In this document: positions 5,667-18,128 of the stretch, piece by piece
Layout: each line of letters starts with the position of its first letter
How positions within the stretch are numbered: the first letter of the stretch is position 1
IMG/VR virus record: IMGVR_UViG_3300025585_001077
Location: 1-41,390 of that record
Length of the DNA stretch: 41,390 nucleotides
DNA from: a virus
Direction: 5' to 3' (one strand)
The notes under the pieces: generated by a model
Databases searched by the model: none
The model's input: only the letters and a program-made list of their open reading frames with translations
Told to the model about the DNA's origin: nothing
Position numbers and translations under genes: made by a program

Positions 5667-7071
5667 GGGGCTGCGCTGGTTTGTCCCGCATGGCGGGCAA
5701 GAGCAGTTCATCGCCTCTATTGACCAGGACACCCTCCTGTCAATCTCTGGTGCCGGTAACGGGTGGGGGAAGTCAGAGGTGTTAGCCGCCCTCCTGGCCG
5801 CCGTCATGTGGCCTAGCCTGGCTTCTGAGGGGCTTAGAGTCCCGCTATTCCAGAACTGGACCTACCCAAAGCGGGCTAGGGTCTATTCTACCCCTGCTGA
5901 GTTGGCTGAGATTGGTTCTCTCCAAACCGCGATCGCCAAGCTATTTCCCAAGGGGCGATACCAGATATCCAAGGGGCTCTATAACTACCCCTCAGTCTTT
6001 ACGACGGATACCGGCTGGGTCCTGGACATGTTCAGTTACGAGCGCCCCGCCAAGGAAGCGGCTGGTCCGAATATCGGCTTCCAGGTGCTTAACGAGCCGC
6101 CTCCCGAGGACCTGTACAAAGAGGCTGTCGCCAGAAGCCGCGCCGGTGGGATTATCGTCGGAGGGATGACATCGCTCAAGGATGAGGTGTGGGTGGTTGA
6201 TGGGCTTCTAGCCAAGCACGACGGCAAGACCGTTAAGGTCCGGTTCGGAAATAGCTGCGAGAACTGCATCGAGCATGGGAAGAACGGAAATCTCAAACAT
6301 TCCCGCATCATGCAGATCCTTGACCAGTTCGACGACCCGGACGAGAAGGAAGCCAGGTACACTGGCAAACCCCTTTCCACCTCTGGCCGGATCATCAAGA
6401 CCTTTGACCGGAATGTCCATGTGGCTAAAGAGCCCATCATCCCGCCTACTTCTGGCGTCTCGTTCTTCCAGGCCGTAGACCCTGCCGGTGGCAAGCCGTT
6501 TGCCATTCTTTGGGCGTTTGCTGACATCGCGGGGAATGTGAAGGTCTTCGACGAGTGGCCCAATTACAAGTTCTTCGGAGCCAAAGACCCCTGCCTGACG
6601 GTCAGCACCTACAAAGAGATTTTCCAGACCAAAGAGGCTGGTTTTCGCGTGGAAACCAGAATCATGGACAAGAGGTACGGCAACACCTCCCACAAGCCGG
6701 GAGCCCCGACCCTCCGCGAAGACTTCTCTAACCTCAATGTGGAGTTCCAGGACTCCTACTCCGTCGGTGCGAATGTCGAGGAGGTGCAGACGGGAATCCT
6801 CAAGATTTTGGAATACCTCAAGTACGACAAGACCAAGCCGATTGATTCCGCCAACCACCCGAGGCTTGAGATATCCCCGACTTGCACCAACCTCATTGCC
6901 TCTCTTGAGCGGTGGACCCGCGATCCCGATACCCTCAAGCCTTTAGACAACCACTTCAAGGACTTCCCGGACGCCCTGAGATACCTGCTCATGGCCGATC
7001 CCAGGCATGAGGTCCCGCTTGTGTGGGAGAGGGAAGCGGGCGCGGCGTACGGGGTGAACACCCTCTCATGA
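5551..7071 (+). CDS. terL: Terminase large subunit
   Basis: A packaging motor with ATPase and nuclease domains. Numbered from the in-frame TTG at 5500, the Walker A-like loop GAGNGWGKS is at residues 84-92, a Walker B-like segment FQVLNEPP at 194-201, the first nuclease acidic residue in VDPAGG (D327), and FPDALR (D491) near the C-terminus completes the RNase H-like nuclease site. No strong ribosome-binding site identifies the start: ATG 5551 (506 aa) is chosen, with ATG 5506 and TTG 5500 as alternatives. Any of these overlaps the small-subunit gene by more than 100 bp. The stop overlaps the next ATG (ATGA). Confidence 0.9.
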   Translation: MKLAHLLRSLQANWPQLSETQRLEAARILAQIKWSRENEGLRWFVPHGGQEQFIASIDQDTLLSISGAGNGWGKSEVLAALLAAVMWPSLASEGLRVPLFQNWTYPKRARVYSTPAELAEIGSLQTAIAKLFPKGRYQISKGLYNYPSVFTTDTGWVLDMFSYERPAKEAAGPNIGFQVLNEPPPEDLYKEAVARSRAGGIIVGGMTSLKDEVWVVDGLLAKHDGKTVKVRFGNSCENCIEHGKNGNLKHSRIMQILDQFDDPDEKEARYTGKPLSTSGRIIKTFDRNVHVAKEPIIPPTSGVSFFQAVDPAGGKPFAILWAFADIAGNVKVFDEWPNYKFFGAKDPCLTVSTYKEIFQTKEAGFRVETRIMDKRYGNTSHKPGAPTLREDFSNLNVEFQDSYSVGANVEEVQTGILKILEYLKYDKTKPIDSANHPRLEISPTCTNLIASLERWTRDPDTLKPLDNHFKDFPDALRYLLMADPRHEVPLVWEREAGAAYGVNTLS

Positions 7072-10647: not shown

Positions 10648-11715
10648 ATGGCCGACCAGAATACCAGCATTGTCACGGGTGATAACCTGCTGATGGTGCT
10701 TTTCAGCCGCAAGGCGATCAAGGCTCTGCACGAGAAGGTCGCTTATTACCAGCTCGCGGAGAAGTTCCCGCTTCCGCCCGGTTCCGGTACGCAGATGACC
10801 TGGAACGGTTGGCGCAAGATCTCGGCGGCGTCGTCCACGCTGGCGGAGGCTTCGTCCAACTCTGCCGTCAACCTGTCGTCTCGTAAGGTCAATGTCACCA
10901 TTGCCTCTTACGGACGCCATGCGAAGATCACGGACCTCGCTGAGTTGACCTCCATCATCGCCCCTGTCGAGGGCGCGGTGACGGAACTCACGCAGTCCGC
11001 CGTCCTCACGCTGGATAATGTCATCCAGCTTGCGGTCTTCAAGAATGTGCTGGCCCAGGTGGGTCAGAACGCCGATGTGAAGTCTAAGCTCCTGTCCGGT
11101 TGGACGGCTTCTCTGGCGTCTTCGTTCTGCGCCAATACGGGCACGAGCAACAAGAGCCGCCAGTTCGGCTTCCCGGTGGTCTTCGGTACGACTTCCGCTA
11201 ACCGCCTGTCGGCGGCTACTGGAGCGTCCGTCTCGTCTCTCCCCGGCCCGATCCTTCTGCGGAAGATGTCCGCCCGCCTGAAGCGTCTGGCTGTCGAGCC
11301 TACGGGTAACGGTAAGTTCGCTGGCGTCTGCCACCCGAACTTCGTCTCGGGTCTGTTCGCCAACCCGGACTACAAGCAGTACATCCTCAACTACGCCGAG
11401 GGTCCGCGCGAGTCGGTGTTCAAGGGGATGATTACGCATACCATCCACAATATCGAGCTGGCTGAGTCTCCCAACCAGCCTCGGTACGCTTCGTCCGCCC
11501 TGTCCTGCAACCCGGTCTTCGCTTGCGGCCGTGGTGCGCTGGGCGTGGTGGAGCTTGGTGGTGGTATGGAAATCATCATCAAGCGCCCCGGCCCGGAGAC
11601 TGTCTCCGAGCCCTATAACCTCAACATGACGGTGGCCTACAAGTTGCGCTCTGTCGCGGCGGTTCTCAATCCGTCGTGCGGCGTGATCGGCCTGCCGTCC
11701 GTGGAGCGGCTGTAA
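10648..11715 (+). CDS. Major capsid protein, N4-gp56-like
   Basis: 355 residues. Recognisable N4-gp56-type features in the first 130 residues include LPPGSGTQMTWNGWRK, a run with LSSRKVNVTIASYGRH and AKITDLAELTSI, then LDNVIQLAVFKNVLA. The codon choice is noticeably strong (many GTC, CTC, TCC), as expected of a highly expressed gene. A strong terminator follows directly. Confidence 0.85.
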   Translation: MADQNTSIVTGDNLLMVLFSRKAIKALHEKVAYYQLAEKFPLPPGSGTQMTWNGWRKISAASSTLAEASSNSAVNLSSRKVNVTIASYGRHAKITDLAELTSIIAPVEGAVTELTQSAVLTLDNVIQLAVFKNVLAQVGQNADVKSKLLSGWTASLASSFCANTGTSNKSRQFGFPVVFGTTSANRLSAATGASVSSLPGPILLRKMSARLKRLAVEPTGNGKFAGVCHPNFVSGLFANPDYKQYILNYAEGPRESVFKGMITHTIHNIELAESPNQPRYASSALSCNPVFACGRGALGVVELGGGMEIIIKRPGPETVSEPYNLNMTVAYKLRSVAAVLNPSCGVIGLPSVERL

Positions 11716-11721
11716 ATGATC

Positions 11722-11763
11722 GGGGGCCAGGATAAGTCCCGGGCCTGGCCCCCTTTCCTTTCT
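11722..11763 (+). terminator. Rho-independent terminator after the capsid gene
   Basis: A perfect 10-bp stem GGGGGCCAGG / CCTGGCCCCC with a 12-base loop, followed by TTTCCTTTCTT. It starts 6 bp after the capsid stop and would give a high-level capsid mRNA its own end. Confidence 0.9.
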
Positions 11764-11777
11764 TCCAAGGAGACAAA

Positions 11778-12107
11778 ATGAAACTTTTTTTTACCCTCAC
11801 TATCGTACTGGTGTTCGGAGCCATCGGACGGGCGGTTAATCTGGTCTACGCCGATCAGGTTAATCCGGCGTCCAATGTGCTGGCTGATACGGCGGCCACG
11901 GCTAAAACCATCGTCCTCCGTGATTCCAGCGGTCTGATTGATCCGGGTTCGATTGATACCGATTCGATCAATGCCCAGTCTATTGATACGGGCAAGCTTC
12001 TTCTCGGTGGTGGAGTGGATACCCAGAAGTTCGTCTGCGTCCACCCGTCCCGCAATCGCTTTGGCCTTGCCACGCCTGCCCAGGTCGCTGCGGGGATTTG
12101 CCCCTGA
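11778..12107 (+). CDS. Small exported-looking protein with fibre-type decapeptide repeats
   Basis: 109 residues with AAGGAGAC ribosome-binding site. Residues 1-24 (MKLFFTLTIVLVFGAIGRAV...) look like a signal peptide or membrane anchor. Two tandem 10-residue units (SIDTDSINAQ, SIDTGKLLLG) match the repeat type of the long fibre at 25127. The C-terminus ends VAAGICP with two Cys. It may be a head-decoration or fibre-associated protein; this is inference. Confidence 0.6.
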   Translation: MKLFFTLTIVLVFGAIGRAVNLVYADQVNPASNVLADTAATAKTIVLRDSSGLIDPGSIDTDSINAQSIDTGKLLLGGGVDTQKFVCVHPSRNRFGLATPAQVAAGICP

Positions 12108-12154
12108 AGCTCAACCTCGGAGCCAGGACTAGGAAGATTGAGGGATTCCTCTAG
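12104..12154 (+). pseudogene. Relic 5' end of the sugar-cluster methyltransferase gene
   Basis: Reading from CTG 12104 gives (M/L)KLNLGARTRKIEGFL and a stop. The intact methyltransferase at 12697 begins MKLNLGSRDRSKVGFV, identical at 9 of 15 positions after the start. The HNH gene at 12155 lies exactly between the two copies, so this appears to be the displaced original 5' end. The CTG overlaps the preceding stop (CTGA). Confidence 0.65.
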
Positions 12155-12700
12155 GTGACAAAAGAGCAGAAAGCCGCCTACGACAAAGCCTATAGGGCGG
12201 AGAACCGGGAGCGCCTGGCGGCGTTAAAAGCCGCTTGGTTTGTGGCGCACAAAGAGCGGGTATTAGCGGCTGAACGCGAAAAATACAAGTCACTTGGTGA
12301 AGAAGAAAAACAGCAGCGTAACGCAAAGTCAATTGAATGGCGCAAACGGAACCCGGAGAAGGCGAAACAGATAATGCGGCGGTGTTACGAGAAGACCAAA
12401 GAGCGACGGCAGGCGTACCAAAAAGCCTATCGAAAAAACAACAAAGGCAAGGTAAACGCAAAAACCATGCTCCGTATCGCCAGAAAAAGAATGGCGTCAC
12501 CGCCGTGGGTGGATAAGAAGGCTATCGAGGCATTGTACGAACGGGCCGTTTTTGTAAGCAAGGAAACCGGCGTAATGCACCATGTAGACCACATCTACCC
12601 GCTTGCTGGAAAGACCTTCTCCGGGCTCCATGTGCCGTGGAACCTCCAAATACTAACGGCGTCTGAAAATTGCCGGAAGGGGAACCGTATCCACCCATGA
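12155..12700 (+). CDS. HNH homing-type endonuclease
   Basis: 181 residues. A long Lys/Arg/Glu-rich helical N-terminus (about 110 residues) precedes the HNH core: VDHIYPL (residues 144-150), VPWNLQIL (160-167) and ENCRKGNR (171-178). HNH enzymes cut DNA with a beta-beta-alpha-metal site and spread free-standing endonuclease genes. GTG 12155 directly follows the relic stop, and the gene's end overlaps the intact methyltransferase ATG. Confidence 0.85.
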   Translation: MTKEQKAAYDKAYRAENRERLAALKAAWFVAHKERVLAAEREKYKSLGEEEKQQRNAKSIEWRKRNPEKAKQIMRRCYEKTKERRQAYQKAYRKNNKGKVNAKTMLRIARKRMASPPWVDKKAIEALYERAVFVSKETGVMHHVDHIYPLAGKTFSGLHVPWNLQILTASENCRKGNRIHP

Positions 12701-13203
12701 AGCTGAATCTGGGTTCAAGGGATCGCTCAAAGGTCGGCTTTGTGAATATGGATATTGACGATCACCCAGGAGTGGACATTGTTGGCGATGTATCTGACCT
12801 TTCGCGCTTCGCTGACGGTTCTGTTGAAACAATCCTGGCATCTAACATCCTTGAACACTTCCCGCATCCCAAGGTGAGGTCAGTCCTTGCTGAGTGGGTG
12901 CGCGTCCTGGCTCCGGGGGGACTTCTCTACCTCAGTGTCCCCGATTTCCGCAGAACGGTGGACATCTACCTTCACATGGGCCTACAGGATTGGGTCCAGA
13001 ACTTCCTGATGGGGGACCAGGGTTATGCGACTGCTTTTCACTACTGCCTGTTCGATGAGGACCGGCTTACTTCACTGATGGAGTCTGTCGGGCTCAAGGA
13101 CATCCTGCGACTTGACTTCATGCCCTTCGGAGAAGACTGCGCCAATATGCTGTCCAACCTGGACGGGAAACCAGTCTGCCTCAACATGAGAGGGGTCAAG
13201 TGA
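12697..13203 (+). CDS. Class I SAM-dependent methyltransferase (sugar or natural-product type)
   Basis: 168 residues. The N-terminal MKLNLGS is the SAM-binding strand of methyltransf_11-type enzymes, followed by a VDIVGDVSDL region and ILEHFPHP (post-II), then LAPGGLLYLSVPD (motif III). Heading a run of glycosyltransferase genes, it may methylate a sugar or glycan end. Its 5' end appears to have been replaced when the HNH gene was inserted. Confidence 0.8.
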   Translation: MKLNLGSRDRSKVGFVNMDIDDHPGVDIVGDVSDLSRFADGSVETILASNILEHFPHPKVRSVLAEWVRVLAPGGLLYLSVPDFRRTVDIYLHMGLQDWVQNFLMGDQGYATAFHYCLFDEDRLTSLMESVGLKDILRLDFMPFGEDCANMLSNLDGKPVCLNMRGVK

Positions 13204-13991
13204 TCGGCTCGTTCACTCTGGTAAAGAATGAGGCCCGCTGGCTTGGAGCCCACCTGGCCTCCTGGCTGCCGGTCCTAGATCAGTTGGTGTTCTTCGACGG
13301 CAACTCAGAGGACGGTACACAGAACCTCATCAAGCAGTTCCAGCGGTTCCACCCCGACGGTAAGAAAATCATCCTCCTCGAGGACAAGGACCCCAAGGAC
13401 CTCCAGGATGATTATGTGCGGATCTTTAACGAGTGCCTGCACACCCTAGAAACGGATGTAGCCATCTTCACCCACCCTGACATGATCTGCGCCGACCCCG
13501 GCAACCTGCGGGAGTTCGACGGGATTTCGGCCACGGTCCAGATGGAATCCTTCGCCGGGAATCCTGGCGGGAAGGTCTACAAAATCAACGGTCGGGCTGA
13601 GCGGTGGAAGAACATCTACCGGCTGAGAAACCCGGACCTTGGTCTTCACTACTTCGGCCACTACGGGGCGGCGAACGAGGATTGCTACTTCTCAGCCATC
13701 ACCGGGGATAAGCACGATTTCTACGGCCCCGTCTTTGAAGCGTACCCCTACAGTGTCGAGCATACGACTTGCAAGGTCCTCCACTACTCGGATGTCAGGA
13801 CCATTGAGAGAAGGCTGGACCGGATGGTGAAGTGCCTGATTAACCAGGGTGCCACGCCCGAGGAAGCGTTTGAGCAGGCGTCCACCCACCCGCGGGTGAC
13901 GCTCAAGAATGGCGGCGGCTTTTCGTTTGCCCTGTCTGACTACCACCCCATCTTCAAGACCTGGGAGGACTCTCTGTGCGTAAAGTCCTAG
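13200..13991 (+). CDS. Glycosyltransferase family 2-like protein
   Basis: 263 residues from GTG 13200 (GTGA overlap). FTLVKNEARWL at the N-terminus, FFDGNSEDGT and FTHPDM replace the nucleotide-sugar binding strand and the DxD-like region in GT2-like enzymes that begin with V/L-x-N-E. It is likely to transfer a sugar within the same cluster. Acceptor and donor are not predictable. Confidence 0.72.
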   Translation: MIGSFTLVKNEARWLGAHLASWLPVLDQLVFFDGNSEDGTQNLIKQFQRFHPDGKKIILLEDKDPKDLQDDYVRIFNECLHTLETDVAIFTHPDMICADPGNLREFDGISATVQMESFAGNPGGKVYKINGRAERWKNIYRLRNPDLGLHYFGHYGAANEDCYFSAITGDKHDFYGPVFEAYPYSVEHTTCKVLHYSDVRTIERRLDRMVKCLINQGATPEEAFEQASTHPRVTLKNGGGFSFALSDYHPIFKTWEDSLCVKS

Positions 13992-14851
13992 TCCCCGGTG
14001 GTGCTGGTTTTCTCGGGAAACATCTCGTCTACCAACTCAAGGACCGGGGGTATCGGGTTTTCGTGGCGGATCGGGAGACGGATCTCAACCATGTCGAGCG
14101 GCCGGATGTCGTGATTAATCTGGCTGGTTTTGTTGGGGGAATCGAGTTCAACCGCAGCCGCCCAGTAGACCTGTTCCTCCAGAACTTCATGCCTGGGATG
14201 AAGCTCCTGGAGTTCGCCAAGCACTGGAAGTCAAAGTTCATCCAGATCGGATCGGTCTGTGAGTACCCCAAACTGACCCAGGTCCCCTTCCTTGAGGATC
14301 ACCTTTGGAACGGATACCCGGAGGAAACCAACGCCCCCTACGGCATCGCCAAGCGGTCCTTGGGCGTCCTGGGTAATGCGTACGCAAACCAGTACGGGTT
14401 GGATTACACCCACATCATCTTGAGCAACCTCTACGGGCCCGGGGATGACTTCTCTGACTCGGGTCATGTGATCCCCGGCATGATTCGCAAGTTCTCAGAC
14501 GCTAAAGACTCGGTGACTTTATGGGGGACCGGGAAAGCGACTCGTGAGTTCCTCTATGTCGAGGACGCCGCCGACGGGATCATCTCCATGATGGAGAGGT
14601 ACACCGGCACCGACCCCGTAAACCTAGGCTCGGGAGAGGAAATCTACATTTCCAATCTGGCGTGGAAGATCGCCCGCCTCATGGGCTACTCCGGGGAAAT
14701 CCGTTGGGACCACGAAAAGCCAAACGGTCAGCCCCGCCGCGCCGTGGATACCTCAAAAGCCTCCGCTTACGGATGGTGCGCCAACACATCCCTAGATTCT
14801 GGACTGTCGAAGACTATCAAGTCGTTCAAGGAGTCACTTGCTAATGCCTGA
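13976..14851 (+). CDS. GDP-4-keto-6-deoxymannose epimerase/reductase-like SDR (GDP-fucose synthase / ColC-like)
   Basis: 291 residues. The NADP-binding GGAGFLG is at 8-14. The GDP-fucose synthase active set is present: S93 and C95 in GSVCEYPK, Y122 and K126 in PYGIAK, and H164 in GHVIPGM, with spacings matching the E. coli enzyme within one residue. GVGGI-type GFVGGIEFN, NLYGPGDDF and WGTGKATREFLYVED also agree. Such enzymes epimerise and reduce GDP-4-keto sugars. Its substrate could be made by the GMD at 30950, with or without the PLP enzyme at 32333. Confidence 0.82.
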   Translation: MRKVLVPGGAGFLGKHLVYQLKDRGYRVFVADRETDLNHVERPDVVINLAGFVGGIEFNRSRPVDLFLQNFMPGMKLLEFAKHWKSKFIQIGSVCEYPKLTQVPFLEDHLWNGYPEETNAPYGIAKRSLGVLGNAYANQYGLDYTHIILSNLYGPGDDFSDSGHVIPGMIRKFSDAKDSVTLWGTGKATREFLYVEDAADGIISMMERYTGTDPVNLGSGEEIYISNLAWKIARLMGYSGEIRWDHEKPNGQPRRAVDTSKASAYGWCANTSLDSGLSKTIKSFKESLANA

Positions 14852-16298
14852 CATCTCGTTTGTCGTCCCTGTCTATGAGCCCTCCCTGGACTTACTGGGT
14901 AAGTGCGTCAAATCCCTGGTTGACCAGTCGCTTAAATCCTGGGAGGCGATCTTTGTCCTAGACGGAGAGAATGACAGTGCGGCGCAAGTGATTCGTCGGG
15001 AGATGAAGAAGTGTCCCAACCACTACAAGATCGTGGTCCAGGAACACTCCGGGGTCCAGCGGGCGCGTAACGAAGGTTTCAAGCACACCACGGCTGACAT
15101 CCTCTGCTTCCTTGACTGCGATGTCCTCATCGAGCCAGAGGCTCCCAGGATGTGGGTGGAGCAGTTTGAGAGGCACCAGGATATCGGATTCATCTACTCC
15201 GGTTACAAGTTCCTAAACGAGCAGGGGGCGATCAACTCTGAGCCTTTCGATCCCTGGACGCTGAGAATCCGCAACTACATTTCCACCTGTTTTCCCATCC
15301 GCCGCAAGTTCTACCCCGGCTGGAATGAGAGCCTGAAGTCCCTTCAGGATTGGGATTTCTGGCTGTCTGCCGTCGAGAAAGGAGCCGTGGGAAAGTTTGT
15401 GGAGGGATATGCCTTCTCTACTGCCTACCCGACGCAGAAATCAATCAGCGGTCAGGGGTGTACGCCCGAGGCGTGGCTGGAGAGGGTCAACGCCGTCAAG
15501 AAGCTCCACAACCTCCCGGAGAGAGACATTTGCGTCTCCTCTCTCCAGGCTAAGCATGAGGGGATTTTCCTGGCAAAACTCATCGGCGCGGACTACCAGG
15601 ATGTCCCCAACCAGAAGCCCCACAACTACAAGACCATCCTTCAGTTGGGGTTCTCCTTCCTGCCGGGCAAGTATGAACACCACATCGCCATGTTCACGGA
15701 GAAGACCAGGAATGTCCTTTTCTGGACCTCCGAGTCTATCGCTGAAATCCGTACGATGCACAACTGGGAAGCCCTTGAGAAGTACGGGGCCAAACTCAAC
15801 GAGGTCTGCACCCAGTTCGTCGAGGATGAGGCGGCTCAAAAAGCATTAAGCCCCTTCTTCAAGACCCAGGTTTGCCCGCTGCCTCTTGCGATCCCGGAGG
15901 TCAAGCCTCTGCCAAAGGATAAGCGTTTCCTGGTGGACATCAACGCCAACTACGGACCTGTTCTGGATGTCCTGGCTAAGAGCCTCCCTGATGTCGAGCT
16001 TGAGCCTATCGGTGACTCGGCAAACCTCAACGACTATACAGGGCTTGTCTACTTCCACCCGGATAGAACGACCTCTCCCAACATGAAGCGCGCCGCCCTC
16101 CTAGGCCGGGCGGTCGTCTCCACAGTCCCAGGAGATTTTACGGGCTTTGTGGACCCCGGCCAGAGTCTCGATAAGTTCATCCCAGCCGTGACCAACAGAA
16201 TCCGATCTCTCGCCTACAGCGGACCGGATAAGAAAGCCATCTCTTTCTACCGGGAGCAGTGCAATGTCGAGAAGTTCAAGGAGTGCATCAATGCTTAA
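14844..16298 (+). CDS. Two-domain glycosyltransferase, GT2 N-terminal domain
   Basis: 484 residues from ATG 14844, overlapping the previous stop. The N-terminal GT-A domain shows FVVPVYEPSLDLL, VLDGENDS and a DCD metal motif (91-93), with QDWDFW as the likely acceptor-site motif further on. The second half (about 250 residues) has GT-B-like features such as LLGRAVVSTVPGD, suggesting a second transferase or accessory domain. Probably adds sugars in the same pathway. Confidence 0.8.
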   Translation: MPDISFVVPVYEPSLDLLGKCVKSLVDQSLKSWEAIFVLDGENDSAAQVIRREMKKCPNHYKIVVQEHSGVQRARNEGFKHTTADILCFLDCDVLIEPEAPRMWVEQFERHQDIGFIYSGYKFLNEQGAINSEPFDPWTLRIRNYISTCFPIRRKFYPGWNESLKSLQDWDFWLSAVEKGAVGKFVEGYAFSTAYPTQKSISGQGCTPEAWLERVNAVKKLHNLPERDICVSSLQAKHEGIFLAKLIGADYQDVPNQKPHNYKTILQLGFSFLPGKYEHHIAMFTEKTRNVLFWTSESIAEIRTMHNWEALEKYGAKLNEVCTQFVEDEAAQKALSPFFKTQVCPLPLAIPEVKPLPKDKRFLVDINANYGPVLDVLAKSLPDVELEPIGDSANLNDYTGLVYFHPDRTTSPNMKRAALLGRAVVSTVPGDFTGFVDPGQSLDKFIPAVTNRIRSLAYSGPDKKAISFYREQCNVEKFKECINA

Positions 16299-16989
16299 GG
16301 CTTCCATCGTCATCCCTGCTTTTAACGCCGCGGGCTGGATTGAGCCTGCTATCGAGTCATGCCAAAAGCAGACCTACCCAAACCTTGAGATTGTGGTGGT
16401 GGACGACTGCTCCACCGACACCACGCCACTGGTGCTGGACTACCTCGCTGGTAAGGATAAGAGAATCCATGTTTACCGAAATGAGAGGAACATTGGGCGC
16501 AGCGCGAGCCGTAATCTGGGTAATGCATACGCTTCGGGCGATGTTCTCCTGGTCCTAGACGCCGACGACCTGGCCTACCCGGATCGGGTCAAGCTCTCCG
16601 TTGAGAAGCTGAAGAAAGCCGAGTTTGTCTACGGCTCAATGGACGCGATGGATTGCCTCGGCAACAAGCAAGGCACCTACCACGCTGATGTGTTCACCAA
16701 GGAACGGGCACTGTCTCGTGGTGTAAACGGAATCGTCCATTCCTCCTGCGCCTACCGGAAGGAAATCGCGGAAAGGTTCAAGTACGACACCGGCGAGATT
16801 TCCAGCCTGGGTCTTGATGACTGGCGCTTCCAGCTTGAAGCCCTCTTTGCTGGGGTTAAGTTCGACTTCATCCCGCAGGTGATCGGTGCCTACCGTGAAC
16901 TGTCTACCGGGATCTCAAAGACTAGGGACCAGAAGCGGGTGGAAGTGGTGAAGGATCGCCTTCTGTCCCAGTGGAAGGTGGCGGCTTGA
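16291..16989 (+). CDS. Glycosyltransferase family 2
   Basis: 232 residues, a compact GT2: ASIVIPAFNAAGWIEPAIES, VVVDDCSTDTT (DD at 38-39), RNIGRSASRN and the DADD metal motif (90-93), with LGLDDWRF as the catalytic-base region. ATG 16291 lies inside the end of the preceding gene (8-bp overlap). It transfers a nucleotide-activated sugar; specificity unknown. Confidence 0.9.
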   Translation: MLKASIVIPAFNAAGWIEPAIESCQKQTYPNLEIVVVDDCSTDTTPLVLDYLAGKDKRIHVYRNERNIGRSASRNLGNAYASGDVLLVLDADDLAYPDRVKLSVEKLKKAEFVYGSMDAMDCLGNKQGTYHADVFTKERALSRGVNGIVHSSCAYRKEIAERFKYDTGEISSLGLDDWRFQLEALFAGVKFDFIPQVIGAYRELSTGISKTRDQKRVEVVKDRLLSQWKVAA

Positions 16990-18128
16990 AGGCGCTTTTT
17001 GTAGCGACGGGTTCCACCTCGATTATGTGGTGGAGATTCCAGAATTTCGCGGAGATCGCCTGGGACCGTGGTCTTGGGACCCTGCTTAACCCCCTGTGGC
17101 GCAAGGACCTCAACACCCACCAGGACTGGCAAGAACTGATGCCTGGGATGCCCAGGTATGACGCCTTCTTCACCAGAGCCTTTGTCCCGTCCATCAATTC
17201 GGGAATCAAGAACGGTGCCGAAGCGGTGGTCTTCCAACTTGGGCATACCGAGGGAGCCTTAGACCTGTTCCTGTCCATCAAGGAACTCTACCCGGAACTT
17301 CCGCTCTACACCGAGTTAGACGACTTGGTGACGGCGGTCCCGACCTTCAATGAAGCCTTCGGCCACTACAAACCCGGTGCCGCTGGACGGTCCTTTGCCA
17401 TCAAGCAGCTAAAGGAGTCTGACGGGCTTATCGTCTCCACCCCGTACCTCAAGGAAGCGTACTCGGAGTTTAACGAGAACATTCATGTGGTCCCGAACTC
17501 CATTGATTTCAAGTTCTGGGGGAAGGCCCGAAGGAAGTCTAAACCTGGAATCAGGATCGGCTGGGCCGGTGGTTCGGGGCATGAGGGGGACTTTGATGTC
17601 CTCCGGGATGTCATCCCCTCCATCCTGGACAAGCACAAGGAAGTGACCTTCGTCTTCGTCAACGGCCCCGCCGCAACCGGACTTCCGCAGTGGATGAAAG
17701 GTCTAAAGGGAATCGAACACCACGCCAAATGGGAGCCGATCATGAGATACCCGTCCATGATTGCATCTCTTGATTTCGACATCGGAATCGCCCCCCTAGT
17801 TGATTCGGCTTTCAACCGTGGGAAGTCCAACCTCAAGTGGTTAGAGGGGGCCGCTTTGGGCTACCCCGTCATCGCGTCCAAAGTCGGTCACATGAAAGAA
17901 TCCGTCACTTCCGGCCATGACGGGGTTCTGTGCGAGACGCCTGAGGAGTGGGAGAACGCGCTAGACGCCCTCATCACCAATAAGAAGTACCGCAAGTCCC
18001 TGGCGATCAACGCCCGGCAGACGGTTGAGCAGAAGTTCAACGCCGAGAAGACGGCGGAACTTTACATCTCAGTTTTAAGAGAGGCCATCTTGAAAAAGAA
18101 GAAGCCTGAGTTTATGGGGGCTGCGTGA
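16986..18128 (+). CDS. Glycosyltransferase family 4-like (GT-B fold)
   Basis: 380 residues from TTG 16986, in a TTGA overlap; GTG 16971 is an alternative. The C-terminal half shows IRIGWAGGSGHEGD and KSNLKWLEGAALGYPVIAS, the donor-binding E-x7-E-like region of GT4 enzymes, followed by a TPEEWENAL segment. This is the last gene of the glycan block and overlaps the head-tail adaptor gene (GTGA), so glycan and virion genes are translated from the same message. Confidence 0.85.
   Translation: MKALFVATGSTSIMWWRFQNFAEIAWDRGLGTLLNPLWRKDLNTHQDWQELMPGMPRYDAFFTRAFVPSINSGIKNGAEAVVFQLGHTEGALDLFLSIKELYPELPLYTELDDLVTAVPTFNEAFGHYKPGAAGRSFAIKQLKESDGLIVSTPYLKEAYSEFNENIHVVPNSIDFKFWGKARRKSKPGIRIGWAGGSGHEGDFDVLRDVIPSILDKHKEVTFVFVNGPAATGLPQWMKGLKGIEHHAKWEPIMRYPSMIASLDFDIGIAPLVDSAFNRGKSNLKWLEGAALGYPVIASKVGHMKESVTSGHDGVLCETPEEWENALDALITNKKYRKSLAINARQTVEQKFNAEKTAELYISVLREAILKKKKPEFMGAA

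Follow-up and report, generated by a model that had tools for sequence, protein, structure and literature searches.

The window, meaning the whole stretch of 41,390 nucleotides that was analysed, is an IMG/VR virus record (IMGVR_UViG_3300025585_001077, positions 1 to 41,390) in which a major capsid gene is followed, in order, by a small ORF, a short remnant that we call the relic, an HNH-type ORF, a methyltransferase (MT) gene, and an ORF that we call GT (Table 1). A second record, IMGVR_UViG_3300006875_000151, is 100% identical to it over 13.8 kb, and the relic arrangement is thus present in one virus only. Searches with the small ORF returned matches from this same phage only. The GT ORF, whose GTG start overlaps the MT stop, has no match in Pfam or PHROG; the conserved block at 13976-18128, after the capsid gene, contains an epimerase and three glycosyltransferases recognisable by Pfam, which suggests that its products decorate the virion with sugars.

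Table 1. Features of the capsid-to-GT region, with coordinates in the window and the basis for each assignment.
Feature	Coordinates	Strand	Basis
Major capsid protein gene (upstream flank)	10648..11715	+	PHROG 1357 major head protein, E 3e-21; tree grouping
Small ORF, function unassigned	11778..12107	+	TGA overlaps relic start; distant homologues at the same position in L122 and L190
Relic, initial 16 codons of a former methyltransferase, LKLNLGARTRKIEGFL followed by TAG	12104..12154	+	Protein score; 12/15 identity to L191/L121 MT start; tree placement
Putative HNH-type homing endonuclease gene, 181 aa, GTG start	12155..12700	+	PHROG matches; 18-sequence alignment; predicted model
Intact SAM-dependent methyltransferase gene, L002-like lineage	12697..13203	+	Pfam Methyltransf_11, E 4e-9; 64% identical to L002; placement tests
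ORF called GT (putative glycosyltransferase), downstream flank	13200..13991	+	Name inferred from place in glycosyltransferase cluster

The HNH-type ORF starts directly after the TAG of the relic and ends in a TGA that overlaps the ATG of the MT gene (ATGA, 12697). Its product matches the profiles PHROG 1035 ("endonuclease VII," E 2e-12) and PHROG 26577 (E 5e-23), which group it with endonuclease VII-type and HNH proteins, and it combines a helical N-terminal part with a C-terminal VDHIYPL..GLHVPWNLQ..N..K.N motif, a conserved HNH catalytic motif in which VDH, P, G, GLHVPWNLQ, N, and K are invariant in an alignment of 18 relatives. In the predicted model, a long helical region makes up the N-terminal part, and the C-terminus shows a beta-beta-alpha order of low confidence, the model being poor at residues 147-162; the protein has no credible match in Pfam, NCBIfam, or PDB, and a fold search with the model returned no significant solved relative. 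The composition of the ORF is as for a recent arrival, with a third-position A frequency of 0.27 (versus 0.01-0.14 in the surrounding genes) and a codon fit of -0.15. We rejected an intron-encoded homing endonuclease, since Rfam detects no group I or II intron in 11500-13500 and the start of the gene occurs twice instead of being split.

The relic itself (12104-12151) translates to LKLNLGARTRKIEGFL, with TAG at 12152-12154, and the intact MT begins MKLNLGSRDRSKVGFV; re-reading of the sequence returned the same coordinates and translations for both starts as the original prediction. The relic has no ATG: a CTG occupies the position of the intact gene's ATG, and the nearest usual in-frame start is a TTG at 12098. 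It also carries a GAGGG (12140-12144) that may be the ribosome-binding site of the HNH gene. At the nucleotide level, the relic and the intact start are identical at 30 of 54 ungapped positions, a likeness that by itself is not significant (local score of 20, reached by 98 of 805 control stretches), but at the protein level their score of 43 is matched by nothing else in the window, the next best among 52,156 stop-free 15-mers from all six frames being 22. The two starts share nine residues and use different codons for seven of them, in agreement with the earlier claim that they differ in both codons and residues; these codon differences rule out a fresh duplication as the source of the relic and imply that both starts diverged for a long time as working genes. 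The register is also correct: the HNH gene follows the relic immediately, and the relic in turn overlaps the stop codon of the ORF before it, an overlap that the MT starts of relatives show as well.

Relatives were gathered with the MT, small-ORF, capsid, GT, and HNH proteins as queries. Within the close clade (capsids 50-58% identical), the usual order at the locus is capsid, small ORF(s), a single MT, and GT, with no HNH gene before the MT; all close relatives that have an MT, L253 included, carry a single copy. Across the wider set, the number of MT copies between capsid and GT is zero (L247 and L248), one (most loci), or two in tandem from different lineages (L004/L005, L006, and L193), the last of these being more distant relatives. 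The HNH gene is absent from this site in all close MT loci, a patchy occurrence, and no HNH-MT pair other than that of the window was found.

The HNH-free relatives L191/L121 have a single MT at the same locus that begins RLNLGARTRSIPGFL and is identical to the relic at 12 of 15 residues, ahead of L119 (11) and of the window's own intact MT (9), which makes the relic the front end of an orthologous MT. In a tree that includes the intact MT, the relic is best placed with L191, and L191/L122 are preferred; it rejects the lineage of the intact MT, the positions of the window MT, L002, and L003 being each 8.3-8.6 lnL worse (AU 0.002-0.006; for the window MT, dlnL of 8.3 and AU p of 0.002). Although the relic offers only 15 informative residues, in a jackknife of nine known genes placements of this size never left the true place more than 3.0 lnL from the best. 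These results support, from sequence comparison, the earlier proposal that an older MT of the orthologous type was severed and that the relic is its 5' end. The prediction had also called for an HNH-free, continuous gene with the relic's start: the L191/L121 gene is of this kind, whereas no allele identical to the relic was found. An exact search of IMG/VR with the degenerate pattern KLNLGARTRKIE recovered the same phage only, GenBank phages had no match at the nucleotide level and a single MT match, of 25%, at the protein level, plasmids gave no match, and bacterial and archaeal genomes gave partial matches only (27-40%).

A severed 5' end could also have been left by two MT genes standing in a row, had insertion of the HNH gene deleted the first beyond its start and spared the second as the present intact gene. 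The end product would look alike, and MT pairs of different lineages do occur at this place in the distant tandem carriers; yet the close relatives that possess an MT are all single-copy, and the relic fits the tandem lineages about 6.5-7 lnL less well than it fits the single-gene L191/L122 type (AU about 0.01-0.09). A lost tandem copy is therefore possible but not preferred, and a tandem paralogue from the deep clade is disfavoured as the source of the relic; we regard this history as unlikely, though it is the most credible of the alternatives.

The intact MT tells a different story from the relic. Its match to Methyltransf_11 (37.3 bits, against a curated cut-off of 21.2) spans profile positions 47-95 only, so that the family alignment is the basis for its N-terminal SAM motif. 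The best placement is with L002 for residues 1-53, 17-53, 54-125, and 54-168 and for the whole gene; L191/L122 are disfavoured in each of the four segments, and the whole-gene test rejects them (AU 0.006-0.009). No part of the gene joins the lineage of the relic. For residues 54-125, the native-like positions L190, L117, and L253 are not firmly rejected (AU 0.12-0.35). The last 43 residues behave differently, being placed best with L194 among all taxa (L002 is 7.8-8.2 lnL worse) and with L003/L002 among close taxa; their better fit to L194 or deeper lineages than to L002 may mark a further mosaic joint.

The original prediction held that the HNH gene had brought only a replacement 5' end; as we took up this reading, MT codons of about 1-53 would have been fused to the older remainder of the gene at the conserved SNILEHF motif. 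Fungal mobile ORFs do likewise at the 3' end (PMC3630166), and GC3 is 0.47 in codons 1-53 and 0.73 thereafter (change-point p of 0.014 before correction for 11 genes). Against this, L002 remains the best placement for codons 54-125 and 54-168, for which L191 and L122 are rejected (AU up to 0.034). As the segments from 1-53 to 54-168 all place with L002, the intact 5' end appears native to its own body, and the change of lineage seems to have involved the gene largely or entirely and not just an exon. The prediction thus stands in its identification of the old 5' end and probably fails in the replacement exon, which we consider improbable; replacement of the whole gene is the more likely interpretation.

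The genes around the locus side with the relic. The portal falls with L119/L122, the L002/L003 lineage being rejected; the capsid groups with L117/L119/L122/L190/L253 and likewise rejects L002/L003 (AU of about 5e-6); and GT groups with L190/L253, rejecting both L002 (AU 0.02) and L003 (AU 0.004). Farther downstream the picture is mixed, GT2 being nearest to L002 and the gene at 16264 not, as expected of mosaic phages. Because the flanks reject L002 while the intact MT sits with it, the complete MT looks foreign, and it is the relic, not the intact MT, that agrees with the surrounding genome. This bears on the reverse possibility, that the element carried the 5' fragment of another phage's MT into the gap before an intact resident MT: homing genes do travel with flanks, and the relic contains a plausible ribosome-binding site for the HNH gene, but the lineage agreement is the opposite of that expected and the relic start overlaps the small-ORF stop as a resident gene would, leaving this reading highly doubtful. 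That the relic is a chance resemblance or an assembly artefact is scarcely credible, for although it occurs in one virus (the second record being identical) and the nucleotide similarity alone is not significant, its protein score lies far outside the window background, its frame and place are right, its residues recur in an HNH-free orthologue, and both flanks are in the usual order.

The reading that we favour, with slightly better than even confidence, is that a complete MT of foreign origin arrived along with the HNH gene, or next to it, and took over from the native MT, of which a stub of 16 codons remains. Judging from the sequence, the nuclease probably helped to swap the whole gene, and the old front end was left as a scar. 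In favour of whole-gene replacement are the HNH-free relatives with a single continuous MT, the L191-like relic, the L002-like intact MT, and flanks that reject L002, together with the overlap of small-ORF stop and relic start as in HNH-free relatives and the 7/9 codon differences indicative of long separate evolution. Against it are the 15 informative residues of the relic, the mosaic state of the clade's MTs (zero, one, or two copies), the lack of another HNH-MT pair, the last 43 MT residues that are not clearly L002, the change of GC3 near codon 53, and the restriction to one virus.

Under whole-gene replacement, the native phage would have had the order capsid, small ORF, methyltransferase, and GT, with an MT of the L191/L122 type. 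A piece of DNA in which the HNH-type endonuclease gene was joined to a complete L002-type methyltransferase would then have entered at the 5' end of the native MT and taken its place through double-strand-break repair and co-conversion. Break repair with co-conversion is the usual route by which free-standing homing endonucleases spread. On the left, the junction would follow codon 16 of the old MT, and on the right it would fall at the end of the new one or close to it; the body of the old MT would have been lost and its start codon would have decayed to CTG. The TAG/GTG junction and the GAGGG of the stub would now serve the start of the HNH gene, and, since the new MT has its ATG within the overlap with the HNH stop, the operon would still read through. 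The stub, the order of the parts, and the lineage mismatches of the intact MT with both flanks and with the relic are shown by the sequence analysis; we infer the joint arrival of the HNH gene and the MT, the cutting of the old allele by the HNH protein, and the direction of transfer.

The closest precedent, by analogy, is provided by fungal mitochondrial mobile ORFs with replacement C-termini, described from atp6 of Allomyces, from atp6, atp9, cox2, and nad3 of Glomus, from atp9 of Rhizopus, and from cox2 of Mortierella (PMC3630166). As in the window, an endonuclease gene lies inside a gene, a foreign copy keeps the product full length, and the native end persists as a divergent stub (PMC3630166), here the relic at 12104-12154. 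In the fungal ORFs, however, it is the 3' end that is replaced and that end alone is foreign, whereas the window has a 5' stub and most or all of the gene is apparently foreign: the MT body follows the lineage of the intact 5' end and not that of the relic, with the GC3 shift at codon 53 as a weak counter-hint. The nucleases differ as well, those of the fungi being LAGLIDADG or GIY-YIG and mitochondrial and that of the window being HNH-like and in a phage.

Phage examples are already known of free-standing nucleases that cause co-conversion and marker exclusion (PMC2988022) and of nuclease genes at exchange boundaries (PMC10448857). The Seg and Mob genes of T4, which undergo intronless homing, resemble the window in that a nuclease lies between phage genes with start/stop overlaps and flanking genes are co-converted; a severed 5' stub of the replaced gene is not described for them or for marker exclusion in the available text of that source (PMC2988022), whereas the window has one, next to an HNH protein of putative activity. 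Homing endonuclease gene (HEG) islands (Barth et al. 2023) are similar in that a functional gene of foreign origin is bordered by a nuclease gene, but they exceed 10 kb and are HEG-flanked, whereas the present locus comprises just one gene, accompanied by one HEG and a relic (PMC10448857). F-CphI of cyanophage S-PM2 is a free-standing homing endonuclease with an Endo VII motif, a C-terminal catalytic part, and the conserved residues DHHRN (PMC6083498); its likeness to the window's HNH protein rests on the PHROG annotation of endonuclease VII and on the free-standing layout with C-terminal catalysis, and F-CphI works together with a group I intron, of which Rfam found none in 11500-13500. No phage case of a severed 5' stub appeared in the literature searched, which covered few subscription journals.

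Because a single junction identifies the replaced gene, its successor, and the nuclease, homing-driven exchange between phages becomes testable here without guessing the target, and stranded gene ends beside nuclease genes would be direct scars of gene replacement. It is conceivable, if rather improbable, that HNH genes form a class that moves with a complete replacement copy of the attacked gene, joined stop to start, and leaves a scar of first codons that doubles as a ribosome-binding region. If so, each invasion would exchange one of the enzymes encoded in the glycosyltransferase/methyltransferase cluster that follows the capsid gene, and, were the pattern general, homing genes would be agents that exchange surface-sugar enzymes between distant phages. 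When 56 HNH loci were scanned for gene starts repeated on both sides, the window alone stood out (score of 52 against a null maximum of 50), the next loci scoring 43 and below, inside the range of swapped pairs; the double start, missing from the other 55 loci, thus seems rare in this HNH family, and the arrangement rests on one virus.

A separate junction, in the close relative L253, could represent another such scar, though a shorter one, or could be due to chance. There, an HNH gene of the same family (5774-6319, 35% identical) lies directly before the GT of the same cluster, and this GT starts within the final codons of that HNH gene. The HNH ORF opens with GTGATCGG, and so, letter for letter, does the window's GT at 13200.
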